Part shown: positions 6,222-41,595 of the stretch, piece after piece
How the letters are laid out: each line of letters opens with the position of its first letter
Position numbering within the stretch: the stretch's first letter is position 1
NCBI GenBank assembly: GCA_022361255.1
Contig: JAKSBG010000454.1
Coordinates: 1 to 46,457, forward strand
From: Verrucomicrobiales bacterium
GTDB lineage: Bacteria; Verrucomicrobiota; Verrucomicrobiia; Verrucomicrobiales; DEV007
Reading direction: 5' to 3'
Length of the DNA: 46,457 bases
Notes under the pieces: generated by a model
Told to the model about the DNA's origin: nothing
Seen by the model: the letters and a program-made list of their open reading frames with translations, nothing else
Databases searched by the model: none
Position numbers and translations under genes: made by a program

Positions 6222-9200
6222 TCAGAAACCGAGGTTGTTCGGTTTGATTGTGCTGGTGGGGCGGCGTTTGACCTGCCGTTTGGTTTTCACCGTTGCGCGA
6301 ACATTGTCCGAGCTGGAGTTCAAAGTTTCTGAAGTTGCTCTGAATATCAGGTGAATCTTTTTCGAGCGGTAAATTGTTGTTTGAGCACTTCTCGAATTCT
6401 TTTGCTTTCGCAGGCGTGATTTTTTAGGTTTTACACGCGAAGATACGGAAGCTGAGAGGTTGGTCGGTGCGGTCCAGTCGGTCAATTGTCTTCCGGTTAC
6501 CAGAGCTGCGGTCACATTGCCGGTCCCGGTTAATTTGTGCTGAACTTTAAAATAGCGATTCCGACGACTCCCTTTGATTCGAAATACGTCAATGACCTCT
6601 CCATCGTTGAAGAGTAACGTTCGTATGGTGACAGGCCGAAGCTTTCGGGATTTTTTTGATCGGGTCTGAGAACCATAGCCCCCGTAAATTGTTCTGCCTT
6701 TTCCGTTAACAGTCAGGTCGGGCTGCAGAAAAGGGAGGTTCACTGCCTCGATATGAAGTTCATACACGCCGGTGCCTGCATTGGAAATTTCCACCTGATA
6801 GGTCCCTGCAGGAAGGGGGACAGAGATTCGGAAATTCTCACCGTTCCCTGCATCGTCATCCTCTTCAGGAGTATTTCTGACAAGGCCACTATCGTCGCGG
6901 AGGACTCCTTTCGTATCTGTGTCGCCGGTTGTGTAAAGGATTGTCACTCTCGGTCTGTCGAGAGTGAAAACGAAGGTGTCCGTGTCACTATCGTGAAAGT
7001 ATCCATCGATACTTCCTATTCCCTCAAGCGAGGGGATAGGAGTAATCATCCCACCGGGAGCATCGTCACGATCTACATCAATGTGGTTGTCAGTGCTCGT
7101 GCTGGAGTTGTTGGTGTTTCCGGCTCTGTCGGTAGCCGACCCAGCCGGAATAGATGCTTTGACATATCCTTCGGCAGACGTTGTTTCGATTTCGATCAGG
7201 TATGTCTCAGGTCCCCCGCTGACAGAAACGGCACCTGCAATTCCGGATGTGGTAACAGATGATGCCATCAAATTAAATACAGGCTCGTTAAACGTTGCAT
7301 CGAACGCAAGAGTTCCGGCAGCTGCGGGATCAGGCTGGGCGCTGCTCTGATTGACGGTTACGGTAGGAGGTGCCGTGTCGACGGTTACTTCCAGAATTCC
7401 CGAAGGGAGAGAAGTGTTGCCGGCTGCATCCGTTGCGGTGGCGGAAAGATGGTGAATGCTATCCGATAGACTGGATGCGGTGATGGTCCAGGGGCTGTTT
7501 GCCAAGATGGACCCGACGGAGTCTGCTCCTGAAAAGAGGGTAACCAGAGAATCCGCCTCGGCGTCCCCGGATACAGTCGGGGTATTATCCGAAGTAACAT
7601 TGTCGTTATCGGATATCCCACTGTCACTTGAGCTGAGGAGGTCAATAGCTGTCGGTGCGTCCGGTGCCGTAATGTCGATTTCTATGGAAAGGCTGCCGCT
7701 GGTGGCATCATCTGCTCCTGAACGGGACGTTATCTGGTGTTGGCCTTCGCTGAGATCCTGGTTGGTCTCCGCAAGGATCCAGCTGCCGTCGGTAGCAGTG
7801 AACGCTGTACCAAGATCCCCGTTCAGGGAGCTGGACAATACTACAACGGTTCCCGGCGTAGCTGTGCCGAAAAACGATGGCCTTGTCACGTTAGACAGAT
7901 TATCGCTCTCGGAGCGACCCGAGTCCGACATAGTATCCAGGTCGGGTACTCCGGGAGCAGGGGGGAACGCATTGGGAGCGCCCGGAGTCGGAGCTGCAGC
8001 AAGGAAGTGGGACGAAACGCGTGATCCACCTTCGCCGTCAGGCATGCGCTGCAGGGACTGGCCACCCCGAAACCCGTTGGCACTTTCATCGAGATGAGGC
8101 TCGCCGGGAAGAAGGAGGCTGGCCAGAATCGTTCCTGTCGCTTCTCCTTCCGGCACAGACACCACGGCATCGAGTAGATTGTTCGAGGTTGCCGGTAGAT
8201 TTGAATCCACCGGAAAATCAGTGTCATTTCCCCTGTAAAGAGCAACCGCATCGCGCCCGTTTCGAATCGAGTTGGGCGGAACCACCATGTCCACGCCTGC
8301 AACGTCTGCATTTCCCACAAGAAAATATCCATTTTCATCAGTTACCCGGCCGTCGAGGTCGACTGCGAGGTAGACTTGTTCCGTATCGCCGCGATAGAAA
8401 ACGAGGACATAGCCATCAAGTGCGGTGCTTCCGCTTCCGCCATCCCAGAGTTCTACGAACTCGAGGTCTGTTGTCGTGTCAGAATCGACTTCATTGATCA
8501 GGACGGGAATGTCTTCCAGCAAGAGGGTCAGATCGTATTCCCCGGTTTGGGCACTGCCTTCGCTGCTAATGATGAGGGTGTAGGTTCCCGGCGCAAGCAC
8601 TTCCGAGATCCGAAAATTCTCTCCGGCTCCGGCGTCACGATCCACTTCTGCGTCGTTGATCTGGACGGCTCCTGATCCTTGCAGCACACCCCGGGTGTTG
8701 ACCGGGCCAGTCGTCTGTGCCGTAAGGATTTTTGGTGCGGTGATCGTAAAAGTGAACACATCCGAGTCGCCCGGTTCGAGCCATCCTGTAGCGGTTGAAC
8801 TGTCACCGGTAAAGGTCATTTCCGTAGGGTTGTCGGAGCGGTGGACATCGAGAGAAACGGAAGTATCTCCAAGCGTTGGCGCGGCACTGGGGTTGCCAGC
8901 GAGATCGGTGGCGGCAGCGGCCCCGACGGTTGCGGTCACGGTTCCTTCGGCTTTGCTGGTCGAAACGGAAACGGTGAATACAGTCGGCCCCCCGCCGACG
9001 GATGCCGCGTTGGCAGCTGAGCCACCCACGGTGATGTCGGAACTCCCGAATCCGTCAACGACTTCACTGAAGGTGGCAGTAAATGAAACGGGTCCCGTCG
9101 TTGCGGGATCGTTCTGCCCCGATGCTTTGCCGAAGGCGAGTGAAGGAGAAGTCGTATCGATCGTCACAGGTAATACCGTGCTTTTTGCCGAAGTATTCCC

Positions 9201-12200
9201 CGCTACATCCGTCGCCGTCGCCGAGATCGAGTGCACCGCGTCGGAGAGGGGGGAACTGGTCAGGTTCCAGGAGCCGGTTGAGGAGCCGTTGGCAATCGCT
9301 TCGCTGGCGGAGAAAAGCGTAACAGTAGCACCGTTTTCCGCCGTTCCTGAAAAGCCGGGCGTATTGTCGTTGGTGAGGTCGTCATTTGGCGATACGCCGG
9401 AGTCAGTCAGCAGATCGGGCATCGACGGAGCGGCGGGTGCGACGGTGTCGATCATGATCGTGAGCGCAGAACTGGTCGGCGAAACATTTCCTGCGGCATC
9501 CGTAGCATTGGCAGTGATGCTGCGCGCGCCGTCTGCGAGGGCCGGGGATGTGATGCTCCAGTTGCCGTTCGAAAGGCCGGTGCTGACGGCGTTTCCGTCG
9601 GAGAAAAGGTTCACATCAGCACCGTTTTCCGCTGTGCCGGAAAACGTCGGCGTATTGTCTGCAGTAATATTGTCTGTATCGGAAATCCCCGAATCGCTGG
9701 CAGCCAATAGGTCGGGCGTTCCCGGCGCTACCGGAGCAGTGATGTCGATCTCAATCAACAAAGCAGTGCTTGCGCTGGACGTGTTTCCTGCGACGTCGGT
9801 GGCAGTAGCAGTGAGTGAAACGTTGCCCTCGGGAAGCGAAGAAGTGGCTACGCTCCAGGTGCCATTGCTGGTAGTCGTAGCAACCGGGGTGGCCCCGTTG
9901 GAAAGCGCAATCGATGCCAGATTTTCGGCAGTTCCGTTGATAATTGGGGTCCGCACATTGGTGAGGTCATCACTGTCGGATCGTCCCGAGTCGCTTGCCT
10001 GTGCGAGGTCGAGAACAGTGGGGGCTTCCGGCGCGGTAAAGTCGAAGGTGACAATGAGTCCGCCGGACGGGGGAGAGACATTACCGGCAGGGTCGGTCGC
10101 GGTCGCGATAACGGAATAACTTCCTTCGACCGCGTTCAGGGAAGTAATGCCCCATGTGCCATTAGATGAACCGCTTCCGATGTTCCCGTCAGCGCTTGAT
10201 CCGGAACGCACCAGGGTCACGGAGGTATCGGCGTCGGCTGTTCCCGTGAAGGTAGGATTGGTCGACCTGGTCGTATTGTCAGAATCCGAGGCGCCGCTGT
10301 CACTGGCTGAAGTGAGGTCCGGGATCGACGGAGCGTTTGGAGCGGTCGTGTCGATTTGTATCGTCAGAGTGGCACTGGCATCGCCACCATCCGCAGAGGC
10401 GGAGAGGACGTGGGTGCCGTCGGCAAGTGCATTGCTTGTGACGCTCCAAACGCCTGCGGCGTTCACCACTCCCGTTCCGAGATTGACATCGTTTGCGTCA
10501 ACGAGTGTAACGAGCGAACCGGGCCGCGCCGTTCCTGTAATAGTCGGCGTATTGTCATTGGTGAGATCGTCGGAGTTTGAACTTCCTGAGTCGCTCGCGT
10601 CGGTGAGATCGAGGTTGAGCGGAGCAGGGGGCAGGGTGTTCGCCGCGCCGGGTGTGGGGGAGAAGGCGGAGAAACTTGCTGCTGTGCGGGGGCTGCCTCC
10701 GCCATTAGGGAAGCGTTGGAGGGAGTGACCAGTTGCATTGCCGGCCGCCGCTTCGTCAAGCGGGGCACCGACGAAGCCGAGCGCGGTCGCAAGCGCCGCA
10801 CCGTCTCCCTGGCCAGACCCGTGAACGACGGCATCGACCAGGCTGTCGGTGGTAGCGGCGGTTCCGTTCGGAAAATCGGTGGAAGGCAACTGGTGAATAG
10901 CGACGGCGTCTTCGCCGCTCTGCAGGAATCCGTCCGGAAGGACCAGATCGGCCTCCGATACTGCGGCGGTGCCGATCACGAAATACCCGTTTGCGTCGGT
11001 GGTCTTGCCGGTCAAGTCGATCGAGCGATAGCTTTCGCCATCCGCGCCGTCATAGAGGACAACCGAAAAGTCGTCAAGCGCGGTGGTTCCGCTTCCCCCG
11101 TCGAATAGCTCGATGAACTGGCGTTCGCCGCCGTTTCCGGTGATGGCATCGGTCTCGTTGATCAGGACACGGTTGGAGACATTCGCGGTCGCGAAGTTAT
11201 TGTCCTCATCCCATTCCGGGACGCCCTGGTTGGCATCGATCCACACGGTCAGGTCATCGGCTCCGTTGACCATGAAGTCGGTCAGGGTGACTACTGCGGT
11301 GTCTCCTTTGAGGATGTCGAATGTATAGGGAATCCCCACCTGGATGCCCCCGTTCAACGGGTCGCCGTTGTAGAACTTCAACTGGACATCCGTGTAGTCG
11401 TTGGTCGATTGGTCGTCGCTCTTGATCGTCACATGCAGGTCCGCCTTCACATTGGGATCAATGTTCGATGCGAAAAACCTCTGCACCGACAAGTCCGTCC
11501 CCGAGACAATGATGTCCGCATATGCCGTGTTCACACTTGTTTTACCTCCGTCGGTCACACCGGCCGTCACCTGCAGGCCGACCTGACCCACATACTCGCT
11601 GGTGTAGGTTACCTGAGGATTCACCCCGAAGGCGTCCCCATAGTTCCCGTCTCCATCGGTATCCCAGCTGTACAAAATGATCTCATCCCCATCCGCATCA
11701 TAGGAAGCCGATCCGTCCAGGGTGATGGGCTGGTTCACCCGACCGGAATAGACTCCGTTCGGGATCGGCACAGCAACCGGGGCAACATCCGTATCCACGA
11801 CTTCGACCTCGATGGTGTAGGTGTCGTAAAACGCCGGGTCGCCGCTGTCTTTGACCCGCAGGGTGACCACGTAGGTCCCGACGGTATCGTATCCCGGATT
11901 GGTCACGTTCAGGCCACTCGCGTCGGGATTGTCCCAATCCACTCCGTCGGTATCGTCGAAGTCCCATTGGTATTCGATAATGCTGGCGTTCGGATCGAGG
12001 TGATAGGACTCTTCACCCGTCATTTGAAATGCCCTTGCCAGCGGTTTGTTGCTCTGCTGACCCACCGGGGTGATGATCGAAACCGGTCGGGGGCGGGGCA
12101 GGGAGCGCGTGAGCATGAGGATCCCCATGGCGGTATTCATGTCCTGTGAAGAGAAAAACGAACCTGGATATTCCGCTGAGTTCGACCACGAACCATCGGC

Positions 12201-13757
12201 CTGCTGACCGAACATGTGACCCGCGGAACGCTCAGTCGGATTGATCGTTGCAGGCAACTGGGCCGCATCTCCCAGCAACCAGAGGTCAACGTCGTTTTGC
12301 CAGTCCCTCTCCCCGATCGAGGTGTCGAGGCGATCGATCTCTTGGAGATACATGCCCCGTTTCACCGAGTACATAGAATACCAATTACCAAAAACACCAC
12401 CTTCAGTATCCGACCCCCATTGATAGGGGTTCGTATAATTGTTTCCAATAAAGCCCACCGCACGACTCACGTTTGTTTGCGCGGTGTCAGTGTCCAAGGT
12501 GTAGCCTCCGAGCTTGTAGGCACCCAATGCACCGCCTGTTTTTGCGGTGTTGACCCACCTTGTACTTGAGCTGTATCCGATTCCACCGTTCTGATTTTGC
12601 CTCTGTGTGAAGTACCCGATACACATTCGATCCACCACCCAGGCGGGAGGATTGATCCCCCAGAGATCCCGGGCGGACTCCAAAAAAAAGGCAATCCATT
12701 GAGTAGCAGACCCATCGAACCCAGAGGTGCTAGACGTGGTGTTCATCGAATACGCCCATCCTCCCCAGGTTGGCTGGTCACTTTGGCAGTAGGCGAACTG
12801 ATCCACCAAATCGGCAACCAGGGAATAGTAGGTTCTCCCCGCCAGGGGCCCCGACTGCACCGTTCGCGCCTGCGCTCCGGCGATGGATTTTTCTGCGGCC
12901 ACGAGGGCTAGGCCTACGTAAGCATTCGCATACGTATCGTGACCAACGTTAGAAATAATCACTCCTTTCCCGTTTCCATTGCCATCCGGGTTCCCATGGG
13001 TCTGATTGGAGATCGTTGTCTCAAGGCCAACATAGGTCAGCCATTCAAGGCCTTTTTCAACCACGTCGCTGTAGATATCGAGTTCCCGATCGTTGGCTGG
13101 CAAATGCCCGTTTTGCTCAAAGGCAAGAATGACAGCAGAGGATGCCCCCATCGCATAGTAATTTCTCGAAGTGCCGGACCCCTCCCAATACACAAGCTCA
13201 TTTCCTTGATCAGTGGTTTCAACTCTCTCTCGATACAAATACAGCTTCGCCTTCGAAACCGCCATGTTCACCTTCTGCTCGTGCGTGGGATCAATAATGG
13301 CGCGTATCACACCGGAGCGGGAAGCGGTATCCCCGTTGTTGTCGGTCACCGTCAGCGTAAAGGTTTTCAACCCAGCGGTCGTGTAGGTGTGAACTGCCGA
13401 GATCTCGTCCGGATCTGTGACGGCCCCGCTCTGCACCGGAGATCCGTCACCAAAGTCCAGGGTGTAGGTGTAGGGCGCGGCTCCATCGAAGGTCCTCCCC
13501 CAGACGGTGATCGGTTGTCCCACCTCCGCATTGGCGTAAATCGACAGCTGGGTGTAGCTGGGCATGACAGCAACCTTCGGTGCTGCCATGACGCTGCCGC
13601 CGATGCCCGGCAGAAGAGAAAGCAATACCAGGGGGAGAATGGATCGCTTCCGTGCCGCTGGTGCACTGCTACTGCGCGTTGAACGCGAATGCCCGAAGCG
13701 GGACCGGATGGAACGGAACAGGCGTTCCCGGCTTCCGGGACAATTCGAATTTTTCAT
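6222..13757 (-). CDS. Giant secreted multidomain protein: PKD, prenyltransferase-like toroid, lamin-tail-like, Ig-like and PPC-like repeats
   Basis: 2511 residues. A long basic N-region (about 38 residues) precedes a hydrophobic signal core (SILPLVLLSLLPG) and an AxA-type cleavage site (VMAAP). The order, in approximate residues, is PKD domain 65-150; alpha/alpha toroid with prenyltransferase/squalene-cyclase-type repeats 160-545 (QNGGIGYSS, QQADGSWSN); two more PKD domains 575-752; CARDB-like domain 760-860. Module A follows: lamin-tail-like (VLINETDA) 862-1040, five BapA-type Ig-like repeats (DNTPTFSGTAENG) 1049-1535, an ATFSEVVDGF-type Ig domain, and a PPC-like beta domain near 1655. Module B repeats this order from 1750 (lamin-tail-like, two Ig-like, Ig, PPC-like). 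The last 170 residues are rich in Lys/Arg/Ser. It is probably a surface or extracellular adhesion or matrix protein; no catalytic residues can be asserted. No outer-membrane barrel or sorting signal is evident. Confidence 0.9.
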   Translation of the reverse strand: MKNSNCPGSRERLFRSIRSRFGHSRSTRSSSAPAARKRSILPLVLLSLLPGIGGSVMAAPKVAVMPSYTQLSIYANAEVGQPITVWGRTFDGAAPYTYTLDFGDGSPVQSGAVTDPDEISAVHTYTTAGLKTFTLTVTDNNGDTASRSGVIRAIIDPTHEQKVNMAVSKAKLYLYRERVETTDQGNELVYWEGSGTSRNYYAMGASSAVILAFEQNGHLPANDRELDIYSDVVEKGLEWLTYVGLETTISNQTHGNPDGNGNGKGVIISNVGHDTYANAYVGLALVAAEKSIAGAQARTVQSGPLAGRTYYSLVADLVDQFAYCQSDQPTWGGWAYSMNTTSSTSGFDGSATQWIAFFLESARDLWGINPPAWVVDRMCIGYFTQRQNQNGGIGYSSSTRWVNTAKTGGALGAYKLGGYTLDTDTAQTNVSRAVGFIGNNYTNPYQWGSDTEGGVFGNWYSMYSVKRGMYLQEIDRLDTSIGERDWQNDVDLWLLGDAAQLPATINPTERSAGHMFGQQADGSWSNSAEYPGSFFSSQDMNTAMGILMLTRSLPRPRPVSIITPVGQQSNKPLARAFQMTGEESYHLDPNASIIEYQWDFDDTDGVDWDNPDASGLNVTNPGYDTVGTYVVTLRVKDSGDPAFYDTYTIEVEVVDTDVAPVAVPIPNGVYSGRVNQPITLDGSASYDADGDEIILYSWDTDGDGNYGDAFGVNPQVTYTSEYVGQVGLQVTAGVTDGGKTSVNTAYADIIVSGTDLSVQRFFASNIDPNVKADLHVTIKSDDQSTNDYTDVQLKFYNGDPLNGGIQVGIPYTFDILKGDTAVVTLTDFMVNGADDLTVWIDANQGVPEWDEDNNFATANVSNRVLINETDAITGNGGERQFIELFDGGSGTTALDDFSVVLYDGADGESYRSIDLTGKTTDANGYFVIGTAAVSEADLVLPDGFLQSGEDAVAIHQLPSTDFPNGTAATTDSLVDAVVHGSGQGDGAALATALGFVGAPLDEAAAGNATGHSLQRFPNGGGSPRTAASFSAFSPTPGAANTLPPAPLNLDLTDASDSGSSNSDDLTNDNTPTITGTARPGSLVTLVDANDVNLGTGVVNAAGVWSVTSNALADGTHVLSASADGGDASATLTIQIDTTAPNAPSIPDLTSASDSGASDSDNTTRSTNPTFTGTADADTSVTLVRSGSSADGNIGSGSSNGTWGITSLNAVEGSYSVIATATDPAGNVSPPSGGLIVTFDFTAPEAPTVLDLAQASDSGRSDSDDLTNVRTPIINGTAENLASIALSNGATPVATTTSNGTWSVATSSLPEGNVSLTATATDVAGNTSSASTALLIEIDITAPVAPGTPDLLAASDSGISDTDNITADNTPTFSGTAENGADVNLFSDGNAVSTGLSNGNWSITSPALADGARSITANATDAAGNVSPTSSALTIMIDTVAPAAPSMPDLLTDSGVSPNDDLTNDNTPGFSGTAENGATVTLFSASEAIANGSSTGSWNLTSSPLSDAVHSISATATDVAGNTSAKSTVLPVTIDTTSPSLAFGKASGQNDPATTGPVSFTATFSEVVDGFGSSDITVGGSAANAASVGGGPTVFTVSVSTSKAEGTVTATVGAAAATDLAGNPSAAPTLGDTSVSLDVHRSDNPTEMTFTGDSSTATGWLEPGDSDVFTFTITAPKILTAQTTGPVNTRGVLQGSGAVQINDAEVDRDAGAGENFRISEVLAPGTYTLIISSEGSAQTGEYDLTLLLEDIPVLINEVDSDTTTDLEFVELWDGGSGSTALDGYVLVFYRGDTEQVYLAVDLDGRVTDENGYFLVGNADVAGVDMVVPPNSIRNGRDAVALYRGNDTDFPVDSNLPATSNNLLDAVVSVPEGEATGTILASLLLPGEPHLDESANGFRGGQSLQRMPDGEGGSRVSSHFLAAAPTPGAPNAFPPAPGVPDLDTMSDSGRSESDNLSNVTRPSFFGTATPGTVVVLSSSLNGDLGTAFTATDGSWILAETNQDLSEGQHQITSRSGADDATSGSLSIEIDITAPDAPTAIDLLSSSDSGISDNDNVTSDNTPTVSGDAEADSLVTLFSGADSVGSILANSPWTITASSLSDSIHHLSATATDAAGNTSLPSGILEVTVDTAPPTVTVNQSSAQPDPAAAGTLAFDATFNEPVFNLMASSVTTSGIAGAVSVSGGPETYLIEIETTSAEGYVKASIPAGSATDRAGNTNNSSTSTDNHIDVDRDDAPGGMITPIPSLEGIGSIDGYFHDSDTDTFVFTLDRPRVTILYTTGDTDTKGVLRDDSGLVRNTPEEDDDAGNGENFRISVPLPAGTYQVEISNAGTGVYELHIEAVNLPFLQPDLTVNGKGRTIYGGYGSQTRSKKSRKLRPVTIRTLLFNDGEVIDVFRIKGSRRNRYFKVQHKLTGTGNVTAALVTGRQLTDWTAPTNLSASVSSRVKPKKSRLRKQKNSRSAQTTIYRSKKIHLIFRATSETLNSSSDNVRATVKTKRQVKRRPTSTIKPNNLGF

Positions 13758-18018: not shown

Positions 18019-18040
18019 TTTCCCGCTTTTGTCCGGTTCA

Positions 18041-18092
18041 ACAGGGTTTGGAGGAGCTTTCAACAGGGTTGAATCGTGGATCAGACAGGGTT
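18041..18092 (+). repeat. ACAGGGTT triad, locus 1 (22-nt period)
   Basis: Three perfect ACAGGGTT octamers start at 18041, 18063 and 18085, each exactly 22 nt after the previous one. The 14-nt spacers are unrelated to each other. The triad begins 22 nt after the stop codon of the 89-residue gene and ends 8 nt before a terminator stem. It shares motif, spacing, strand sense and 3' location with two other loci in this window. Confidence 0.9.
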
Positions 18093-18100
18093 GAAACAAA

Positions 18101-26630: not shown

Positions 26631-26667
26631 GAAGCGGGACCGGCAACCGCTTTTCCCATGTGCCCTG

Positions 26668-26719
26668 ACAGGGTTTGCTCTGCCACCGGACAGGGTTCGG
26701 TCCGCGATCCAACAGGGTT
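26668..26719 (+). repeat. ACAGGGTT triad, locus 2 (22-nt period)
   Basis: Perfect ACAGGGTT octamers start at 26668, 26690 and 26712, exactly 22 nt apart, with unrelated 14-nt spacers. The first starts 37 nt after the mnmE stop, and the last ends 22 nt before a terminator stem. Motif, period and orientation relative to the upstream gene match locus 1. Confidence 0.9.
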
Positions 26720-26741
26720 TGGTGCTGCTTTCGAGACACAA

Positions 26742-40141: not shown

Positions 40142-40526
40142 AGGCCCAGTTGGAGAGAACGAGAAGGAGAATTGCCGGAAGAGCGAATGGAAGAGGAAGG
40201 GAAACAGAAAAGCGGTAACCGAAAGCGAGCCACGATACGGCCCACAGGGTTGCGAGAGGAAGAGCCAGCGAAACCAGTGGGTTCGTCAGAAAAGCTTTGG
40301 CAAACTGCCCGCTCAGGAGAGCAAAGGAGGAAGTGGTCCCGCCGCAGAGCGGGCAGGGGATTCCCAGAATCTGCCGCATCGCACAGGGCGTGAGATCCGG
40401 TCCGTTAGAGGGAGCGAAAAAATAGGCCGCTGAAACAGCCGTGACAAAAACGGTCAGGCCCAAAAAAAATCCGCGCGTCCAACCTTCGAAAAAGGAGGCG
40501 CGCGGAACTTTTTCCCAACGGATCAT
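40116..40526 (-). CDS. DUF2752 membrane protein
   Basis: 136 residues with three hydrophobic segments. The DUF2752 signature CAMRQILGIPCPLCGGTTSS, with conserved cysteines, is followed by GQFAKAFLTNPLVSLALP. The function is unknown; the cysteine motif suggests metal binding at the membrane. ATG 40526 is chosen: AGGAAG lies six bases upstream of it, one of the few Shine-Dalgarno-like sequences in the window. A longer version from 40565 would overlap the DUF4190-like gene. The 3' end overlaps the tctC-tctB start. Confidence 0.85.
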   Translation of the reverse strand: MIRWEKVPRASFFEGWTRGFFLGLTVFVTAVSAAYFFAPSNGPDLTPCAMRQILGIPCPLCGGTTSSFALLSGQFAKAFLTNPLVSLALPLATLWAVSWLAFGYRFSVSLPLPFALPAILLLVLSNWAYVISTRMQ

Positions 40527-40536
40527 TGTCCGCTTC

Positions 40537-40833
40537 CTACTGCGTCGGCATGGTTTCAAAAGCACCTTGAGAGGCCGCTCCGCCGACTATCGCCGCGATA
40601 AAGATGAAGTAGATCACCGCAAAAACGAGACCAAGAGCGAGCAGAATCACGGAGATGATGCCACAGATCTTCCCGGCGTTTGCCTGACCGAGACCTTCCG
40701 GGTCCATGGTTCCGGCTTCCATTTTCGGGATATCCTTGTTCGCCATGACCCAGGCAATGATGCCGCAAATCTGACAGAGTACGATTCCGAGAATTCCAAG
40801 GACGAGAATTGTTGTTCCACGATGAGGTTCCAT
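40537..40833 (-). CDS. DUF4190-like small membrane protein
   Basis: 98 residues with two transmembrane helices (TTILVLGILGIVLCQICGII and CGIISVILLALGLVFAVIYF) joined by a short polar loop (MANKDIPKMEAGTMDPEGLG). The layout with a repeated xGIxGxxxxx helix start matches DUF4190 proteins. No function is known. ATG 40833 (MEPHRGTT) is chosen over 40881. It lies 10 bases upstream of the DUF2752 gene and probably shares its transcript with the tct genes. Confidence 0.8.
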   Translation of the reverse strand: MEPHRGTTILVLGILGIVLCQICGIIAWVMANKDIPKMEAGTMDPEGLGQANAGKICGIISVILLALGLVFAVIYFIFIAAIVGGAASQGAFETMPTQ

Positions 40834-40913
40834 AACGGGGAAAGTGTTTCGCAAGCCGGTCGCTTCGTCAATCGTATTCACGCGAAATCGGCGTGATAGA
40901 CGGGACGGGGATC

Positions 40914-40965
40914 AACCCTGTTAGATGAGTAACCATACCCTGTCAGGTAGGCGAACCAACCCTGT
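40914..40965 (-). repeat. ACAGGGTT triad, locus 3 (22-nt period)
   Basis: On the minus strand the octamers are ACAGGGTT (40965-40958), ACAGGGTA (40943-40936) and ACAGGGTT (40921-40914), exactly 22 nt apart. The first begins immediately after the TAA of the LON-domain gene. A hairpin TCACGC/GCGTGA (40878-40896) follows 17 nt later, without a T-run. It matches loci 1 and 2 in period, orientation and 3' position. Confidence 0.88.
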
Positions 40966-41595
40966 TTACTCCTTCGCGAGAAGCAGGCTGAGTCGGTCGG
41001 ATAGGTAGCGAAGCCGCCCCGACACGTCGAGAGTTTCGAGAAGGTGCTGGCGCTCGCCGGGGTCGTGAAGAAAGGCATGGGAGACCACGTCGGCTATCGC
41101 GGCAGGATCGCTTACACTTGCAAGGTGGTCGCTCAGCTGGTTGGACATCGGTTTTCCCTCCCCGCAAAGCTTGCGGGAAAGGTCGATTACCTCGAGGGCG
41201 GCCTCGACGGCAACATCCGGATCATCGACGCGCGAGGGAAGGGGGAGGACAGTGGCCACCCGGAAGGGGTGATGTTGCTCGAAGCCCAGAATTTCCACGC
41301 GCTGCAGTCCCGAGAGCATAAGGTGGGACGTCCCGTCCGGATGAGTGACACACGCGCGGATCAGTCCAATTGTGGAAATCCGGTGAACGGGGTCTTCGCT
41401 GAGGTCGGTGTCGATGTCCGGCAGGGCGTGACCAATGCAGAACATCCGGTGCCGCTCAAGGCAATAGGAAAGCATGTCCCGGTAACGCTGCTCGAAAAGG
41501 AACAGTGGCATGTAGCTATGCGGAAACAACGTGGCACCTCCCAGCACCATTACCGGTGCTGTGTCAGGTATTTCCGCTGGTTCATCATCGTCCAT
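40966..41595 (-). CDS. LON substrate-binding domain protein
   Basis: 209 residues consisting of the N-terminal LON domain alone (PVMVLGGATLFPHSYMPLFL, EQRYRDMLSYCLERHRMFCI, GLIRACVTHPDGTSHLMLSG, LQRVEILGF) plus a helical C-terminus. There is no ATPase or protease domain, so it is not a Lon protease. Stand-alone LON-domain proteins are common in bacteria and their role is unclear; substrate or peptide binding is likely. It is divergent from rpsO. The stop codon is directly followed by an ACAGGGTT triad. Confidence 0.9.
   Translation of the reverse strand: MDDDEPAEIPDTAPVMVLGGATLFPHSYMPLFLFEQRYRDMLSYCLERHRMFCIGHALPDIDTDLSEDPVHRISTIGLIRACVTHPDGTSHLMLSGLQRVEILGFEQHHPFRVATVLPLPSRVDDPDVAVEAALEVIDLSRKLCGEGKPMSNQLSDHLASVSDPAAIADVVSHAFLHDPGERQHLLETLDVSGRLRYLSDRLSLLLAKE

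Follow-up and report, generated by a model that had tools for sequence, protein, structure and literature searches.

Species of one genus in the order Verrucomicrobiales carry a DNA element of two or three units that recurs along the chromosome at even distances of about 10 to 20 kb, lies in either orientation, has a species-specific spelling, and was made mainly by base substitution. The best explanation for these arrays, to which we give a probability of about 0.4, is that they are anchor or loading sites of a putative chromosome-organizing protein. The window, that is, the whole stretch of 46,457 nucleotides from the source genome (G000), holds ACAGGGTW 10 times against 1.25 expected, a count reached by none of 100 shuffles. 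The element is real, unusual, and genome-wide, and in kind it is akin to dispersed chromosomal sites already known; a published description of it was not found in the open-licence PMC literature.

Phased arrays of pseudo-palindromic units

The element consists of three 19-bp pseudo-palindromes (two in some species), GAYYYAAC-AGG-GTTRRRTC, with centers exactly 22 bp apart. The core of each unit faces either way (AGG or CCT), and we refer to ACAGGGT as F and to ACCCTGT as R. Since the outer bases of both are identical (AC-AGG-GT and AC-CCT-GT), the R core is not a separate motif, and the unit is a pseudo-palindrome with an asymmetric center. Its anatomy was described in 725,698 bp of G000, comprising the window and 40 stretches picked for holding matches, where distances between cores within 100 bp were 22 bp (112 times), 44 bp (49 times), 66 bp (once), and 43 bp (once). 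Exactly three units made up 64 of the 67 arrays, arranged as FFF (26), FFR (21), RFF (12), or FRF (5). The array length of 63 bp corresponds to three units and two 3-base gaps, and conservation in the profile ends at those edges.

The 220 exact cores of this sample divide into 181 within arrays and 39 alone, and the isolated ones are not enriched, given a median of 83 copies for 419 7-mers made by permuting these bases. Triad scores, which come from matrices trained on the same arrays that they score, are strongly bimodal, with almost none between background and clear sites. Because isolated cores are few and triad scores are bimodal, single units are not accumulated, and selection acts on the array as a whole.

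An RNA hairpin between the repeats was considered and rejected: pair z-scores rose to 3.6 in a mixed-species set, and the signal was gone within one species. There, 137 spacers gave 2.72 of 6 Watson-Crick pairs versus 2.82 with re-dealt halves, showing no covariation (one of seven single spacer pairs had a P of 0.036), and the apparent dyad of the spacer is two half-units placed face to face. Folded as RNA, the triad had no excess structure over shuffles (z 0.12). It shows neither the fold or covariation support of a structured RNA nor the T-run of an intrinsic terminator, and the window had no Rfam matches. Since isolated units are unenriched and the spacers do not covary, the element is taken to be a cooperative DNA site and not an RNA or a transposon.

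The arrays of the window and the features around the array behind the LON gene are as follows.

40909-40971, minus strand: array behind the LON gene, FFF, triad matrix score 56.1, limits from the profile
40953-40971, 40931-40949, and 40909-40927, minus strand: its three 19-bp units, limits from the profile
40959-40965, 40937-40943, and 40915-40921, minus strand: their cores
40966-41595, minus strand: ORF on the upstream side of the array, LON substrate-binding domain (PF02190, E 1.3e-30), listed for context
40537-40881, minus strand: DUF4190-like ORF (E 1.7e-5; 24.9 bits, below the family cut-off of 35), downstream of the array, context only
40878-40896, minus strand: weak hairpin beyond the 3' edge of the array, lacking a T-run and outside the conserved element (array flanks are unconserved in the profile)
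18035-18097, plus strand: second array, FFF, cores at 18041, 18063, and 18085, followed by a terminator-like hairpin
26662-26724, plus strand: third array, FFF, cores at 26668, 26690, and 26712, flanked by two convergent genes, with a hairpin after it

The layout given in the earlier note was found again on the minus strand: the LON stop codon TAA (40966-40968) precedes ACAGGGTT (40958-40965), ACAGGGTA (40936-40943), and ACAGGGTT (40914-40921) in 22-nt steps, and beyond them lie the hairpin without a T-run and a further ORF on the same strand. The stop codon is inside the first conserved 19-bp unit, not merely adjoining it. The hairpin has a 6-bp stem (TCACGC/GCGTGA) and a 7-nt loop, and the folding energy of a 36-nt stretch that includes it is -9.7 kcal/mol (z -2.6). 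A differing last base in one octamer had been read as a hint of tolerated positions, and variation there is indeed tolerated: the core is a 7-mer, and position 8 is T in 0.72 of the 181 exact units.

A lone ACAGGGTT at 40244-40251 of the window (plus strand), in a coding region and without partners, is taken as chance because isolated cores are not enriched genome-wide. The window also contains an open frame of 2,511 codons at 6222-13757 (minus strand), unusually long among its neighbors. Elsewhere in G000, an array of nearly identical 22-bp units runs to the end of contig C82 (L131, from 10451 onward), and an identical pair of units lies close to the start of another contig (G000:C156:141); the two are possibly one longer tandem array collapsed in the assembly.

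Position of the arrays relative to genes

The gene context was examined for 74 arrays in 806,149 bp of G000, with gene calls from a simple codon-usage caller. Co-directional genes flanked 43 arrays, convergent genes 13, and divergent genes 8, while 8 lay within ORFs and 2 at edges. The element therefore extends beyond convergent gene ends, as had been proposed from the array behind the LON gene. The 43 co-directional arrays lie at a median of 8 nt from the upstream stop codon and 47 nt from the next start. Copies within ORFs, which keep the frame open, amount to 8 of 74 arrays in G000, 7 of 20 in G007, and 6 of 19 in G024, and family matches place such copies in genes including hemC, ctaB, rsmB, and mutL.

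This preference for positions just behind stop codons is the part of the earlier claim, that the element goes with the 3' end of a transcript, that stands. Transcript termination, pausing, or processing behind stops, by a bound protein or an RNA feature, would fit the short distance in the 43 co-directional cases, and it could also draw on the strong hairpins 3' of both other arrays of the window. Nevertheless, such a device is improbable, since arrays occur in both orientations, between divergent genes, and within ORFs, and the great majority of genes have none. The orientation of the array is not tied to transcription, and no fixed orientation behind genes was found; where there is a bias it is antisense, with a net orientation among the 43 co-directional arrays of 30 antisense, 11 sense, and 2 balanced (p 0.004 for 30 vs 11). 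The unstructured triad RNA and the spacers without covariation also speak against it, as does the even chromosomal spacing (see below), which transcript-end function does not predict. Furthermore, the array is not retained behind orthologous genes: among LON orthologues, the triad is present in G000 only, 25 of the 26 others have nothing behind the gene, and the 26th, in G002, the nearest relative of G000, has two decayed units in register. The site is more often than not near gene ends, yet it is no transcript-end signal.

The genes flanking divergently placed copies, judged by eye, included no apparent regulator. In one G000 ORF (L136, 7910-9385), an array occupies the junction of a phosphatase-like and an ADP-ribosylglycohydrolase domain, as though read-through across the array had produced a fusion.

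Dialects and origin of the copies

The pattern ACAGGGT-N15-ACAGGGT has 298 matches in G000 and none in the reversed-pattern control, which bears out the claim of a real repeated element. This exact spelling, the only one to which these counts apply, was matched in 29 of the 33 genus genomes and in none of 23 further genomes from the family and order. The related ACAGGGT-N15-ACCCTGT was found in 30 of the 33 genus genomes and AGAGGGT-N15-ACCCTCT in 19, G000 not being among the latter. Within the genus, species dialects include ACAGGGT, AGAGGGT, ACAGGGTACA, and ATAGGGTACA; the last is that of G029, with a 21-bp step, and the dialect of G024 is ACAGGGTACAGTC. A species-wide scan returned at least 92 stretches, and among the 80 loci listed, all 68 from Verrucomicrobia fit the matrix and 12 from other groups resemble short tandem repeats; four of those 12 score above 30 because the core is repeated in them.

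In G002, 45 exact pairs were counted, 57 with either core spelling, and 192 with up to two mismatches (control 10), compared with 298, 336, and 476 (control 22) in G000. These mismatch-rich pairs suggest relaxed maintenance or decaying sites, or they may represent a further dialect instead. In G026, a member of the genus, arrays are almost absent; a de novo search of about 296 kb found no other dialect, and inverted 6-mers 22 bp apart were in mild excess (119 vs a mean of 88, sd 10). An island in that genome (L283-L284, G026:C50:232001-272000) has three arrays about 10 kb apart, a GC content of about 0.60 versus 0.52, and metal-resistance genes (RND pumps, cation efflux, and a multicopper oxidase), and it was likely acquired by horizontal transfer from an array-bearing relative.

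Orthologue alignments indicate how the copies arise. In CtaB (heme o synthase), the G000 triad falls in a conserved stretch over which 26 of 30 genus orthologues align gap-free, the four divergent ones having one residue fewer; the same three units recur in G002, each with one mismatch, and no units occur in the remaining 28 orthologues. Counted by eye, at least two exact units of some dialect occupy the same codons in 12 of 26 RsmB orthologues, and at least two exact units occur at the same place in 11 of 29 hemC orthologues. For both genes, carriers are mostly as long as non-carriers; the exceptions are in G000, G024, and G029. The three-unit RsmB of G024 has about 10 residues more, the RsmB stretch of G000 is three residues longer, and longer three-unit versions of hemC occur in all three genomes. 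As these alignments read, copies arise mainly by in-place base substitution, with turnover, and local duplication adds some units.

A transposon or MITE as the main origin, suggested by the copies within ORFs and by apparent terminal inverted repeats, was rejected on the basis of the same alignments. More broadly, a repeat that is or once was mobile (a MITE, a REP, or a palindromic element of the Rickettsia type) is an explanation that we can scarcely credit. It would account for a genome-wide, mostly extragenic, and genus-limited distribution with open-frame copies in ORFs, for the identical units at the end of contig C82, and for the extra residues of RsmB in G024 and of hemC in G000, which is longer than most orthologues. 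Against this, the copies are unlike each other between cores (among 70 copies, only the unit positions were common over the whole length), the insertion expected of such repeats is missing from CtaB and mostly from hemC and RsmB, the units of G002 differ from those of G000 by one mismatch each, and even spacing is unexpected of mobile copies. REP and BIME sequences likewise have hundreds of extragenic copies at the 3' sides of genes; they are alike over their full length and fold into hairpins, and BIME-2 elements bind gyrase. The arrays differ in that only the cores are common, the spacers are unpaired, and copies also lie in conserved coding sequence without insertion.

Even spacing and the role of the arrays

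The arrays are distributed and non-randomly placed, as expected of chromosome-organizing sites. On a contiguous 400 kb of G007, 20 arrays lie 8.8 to 31.4 kb apart (19 intervals, mean 19.2 kb, CV 0.34), and two contigs of G024 gave 11 intervals with a mean of 11.0 kb and a CV of 0.36; these contigs (G007:C2, G024:C168, and G024:C222) were chosen for hemC, LON, RsmB, or LON-like matches, and G024:C168 includes the array-bearing RsmB. The G000 stretches gave 39 intervals with a mean of 9.4 kb and a CV of 0.38, figures that are not genome averages of density, as the stretches were selected from listed pair matches, a choice that under-represents arrays lacking an adjacent FF pair. Random placement gives a CV of 0.84 to 0.95 versus the observed 0.34 to 0.38 in the three species, and equally even random placements numbered 0 (G007), 69 (G024), and 0 (G000) per 100,000. 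When placement was restricted to intergenic positions, none of 2,000 trials was as even in any of the three species. Only 3 of the 39 G000 intervals are below 5 kb, against 17.7 expected. On the G007 contig, none of 4,879 8-mers with 17 to 24 sites was as even (lowest CV 0.46). In G029, the strict pattern gave intervals of 12.3 and 13.8 kb, with a third of about 14 kb if a looser site is counted.

Loading or packaging sites for a gene-transfer agent, a phage-like particle, or another DNA-translocating machine with a cargo of about 10 to 20 kb would match this spacing scale, the one feature that favors them. We hold them to be very improbable, given that pattern-matching virus contigs did not contain the element: of five IMG/VR stretches that matched one of two patterns, three are simple repeats, and L366 and L367 score nothing with the matrix.

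The main rival reading is a DNA-uptake or self-recognition signal that would work in the manner of the DUS and USS of Neisseria and Haemophilus. Array-bearing DNA would have an advantage in being taken up, retained, or spared, and the arrays would spread by recombination. DUS and USS are single units of 9 to 12 bp, and the genomes that carry them are of about 2 Mb. They resemble the present arrays in having many copies on both strands, within and between genes, in-place evolution, dialects, and some even spacing. PMC3630211 and PMC1939737 describe these features for the DUS of Neisseriaceae and the USS of Pasteurellaceae, which number hundreds to thousands of copies, and evenness of USS spacing is claimed in the latter. 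In our genus, dialects are genus-limited, copies within genes evolve in place, arrays occur in both orientations, and a ComEC was found in 29 of the 33 genomes, including all 23 complete ones. However, ComEC also occurs in the nearly array-free G026 and hence does not discriminate. Instead of single motifs, each array combines two or three 19-bp pseudo-palindromes set in helical phase; units outside arrays are unenriched (39 vs 83) and near-matches few, whereas PMC1939737 describes gradual accumulation of uptake sequences via mismatched forms. One array per 10 to 20 kb is likewise sparse next to the roughly 1,500 to 2,000 uptake sequences per genome reported in that paper, about ten times sparser, and far more even. 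We therefore consider an uptake signal unlikely, though still a serious contender.

We return to the reading of the arrays as sites of a chromosome-organizing protein. From the anatomy, each 19-bp pseudo-palindrome is predicted to be the site for one dimer of a sequence-specific DNA-binding protein. With units two helical turns apart (22 bp, or 21 bp in G029), two or three dimers would occupy the same side of the helix and bind with cooperativity, and isolated units would not be kept because of this proposed cooperativity. The putative protein may, with less certainty, organize the chromosome, each array serving as an anchor, a loop base, or a loading point that is effective over about 10 to 20 kb. 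A new array near an old one would be redundant and decay, and an over-long gap would be selected against; together, these two processes are proposed to produce the even spacing. Copies would settle where they disturb genes least, often right behind a stop codon. A fuller version, which we advance only tentatively, is a sequence-coded chromosomal ruler, in which hundreds of phased multi-operator arrays are kept 9 to 20 kb apart, a distance typical of each species, by selection on spacing, a putative cooperative protein folds or coats the chromosome in such units, and its specificity and all of its sites have been rewritten several times within one genus.

Known systems offer partial precedents. 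The OL and OR operators of phage lambda are each three pseudo-palindromic sites of 17 to 19 bp a few base pairs apart, with two such triads per phage genome. The triad layout is alike in suiting cooperative dimers and looping, and it differs here in that hundreds of triads lie along the chromosome and not at promoters. The Noc/ParB and SlmA sites are dispersed single palindromes whose proteins spread along or bridge the chromosome, and to our knowledge they are not evenly spaced at 10 to 20 kb. They share with the arrays a dispersed set of sites for a sequence-specific protein (here predicted), but theirs are single and fewer. No dedicated Noc-like ParB paralogue was seen, as most genomes of the genus have one ParB match, a result compatible with the single chromosomal ParB as the array-binding protein.

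Several observations weigh against an organizing role. The genus member G026 is nearly array-free and presumably viable. The lack of a dedicated Noc-like paralogue in most genomes also counts against it. Known chromosome-organizing sites are mostly conserved across wide groups, unlike the arrays, whose spelling changes within one genus. An organizing role also does not account for the antisense bias in G000.

We know of no dispersed chromosomal site with the form of these arrays, nor of any fixed, evenly spaced set of sites at the 10 to 20 kb scale in bacterial chromosomes. Whether bacterial chromosomes have sequence-defined domains of 10 to 20 kb is a long-standing question, for which this genus offers an evenly spaced site set and a natural experiment, as its species differ in spelling and spacing and have relatives that are nearly array-free. 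If the arrays are instead an uptake or self-recognition signal, this would be a new form of it, built of phased triads, and we know of no such signal in Verrucomicrobiota. Under either reading, the even spacing makes the role of the arrays a directly testable question.
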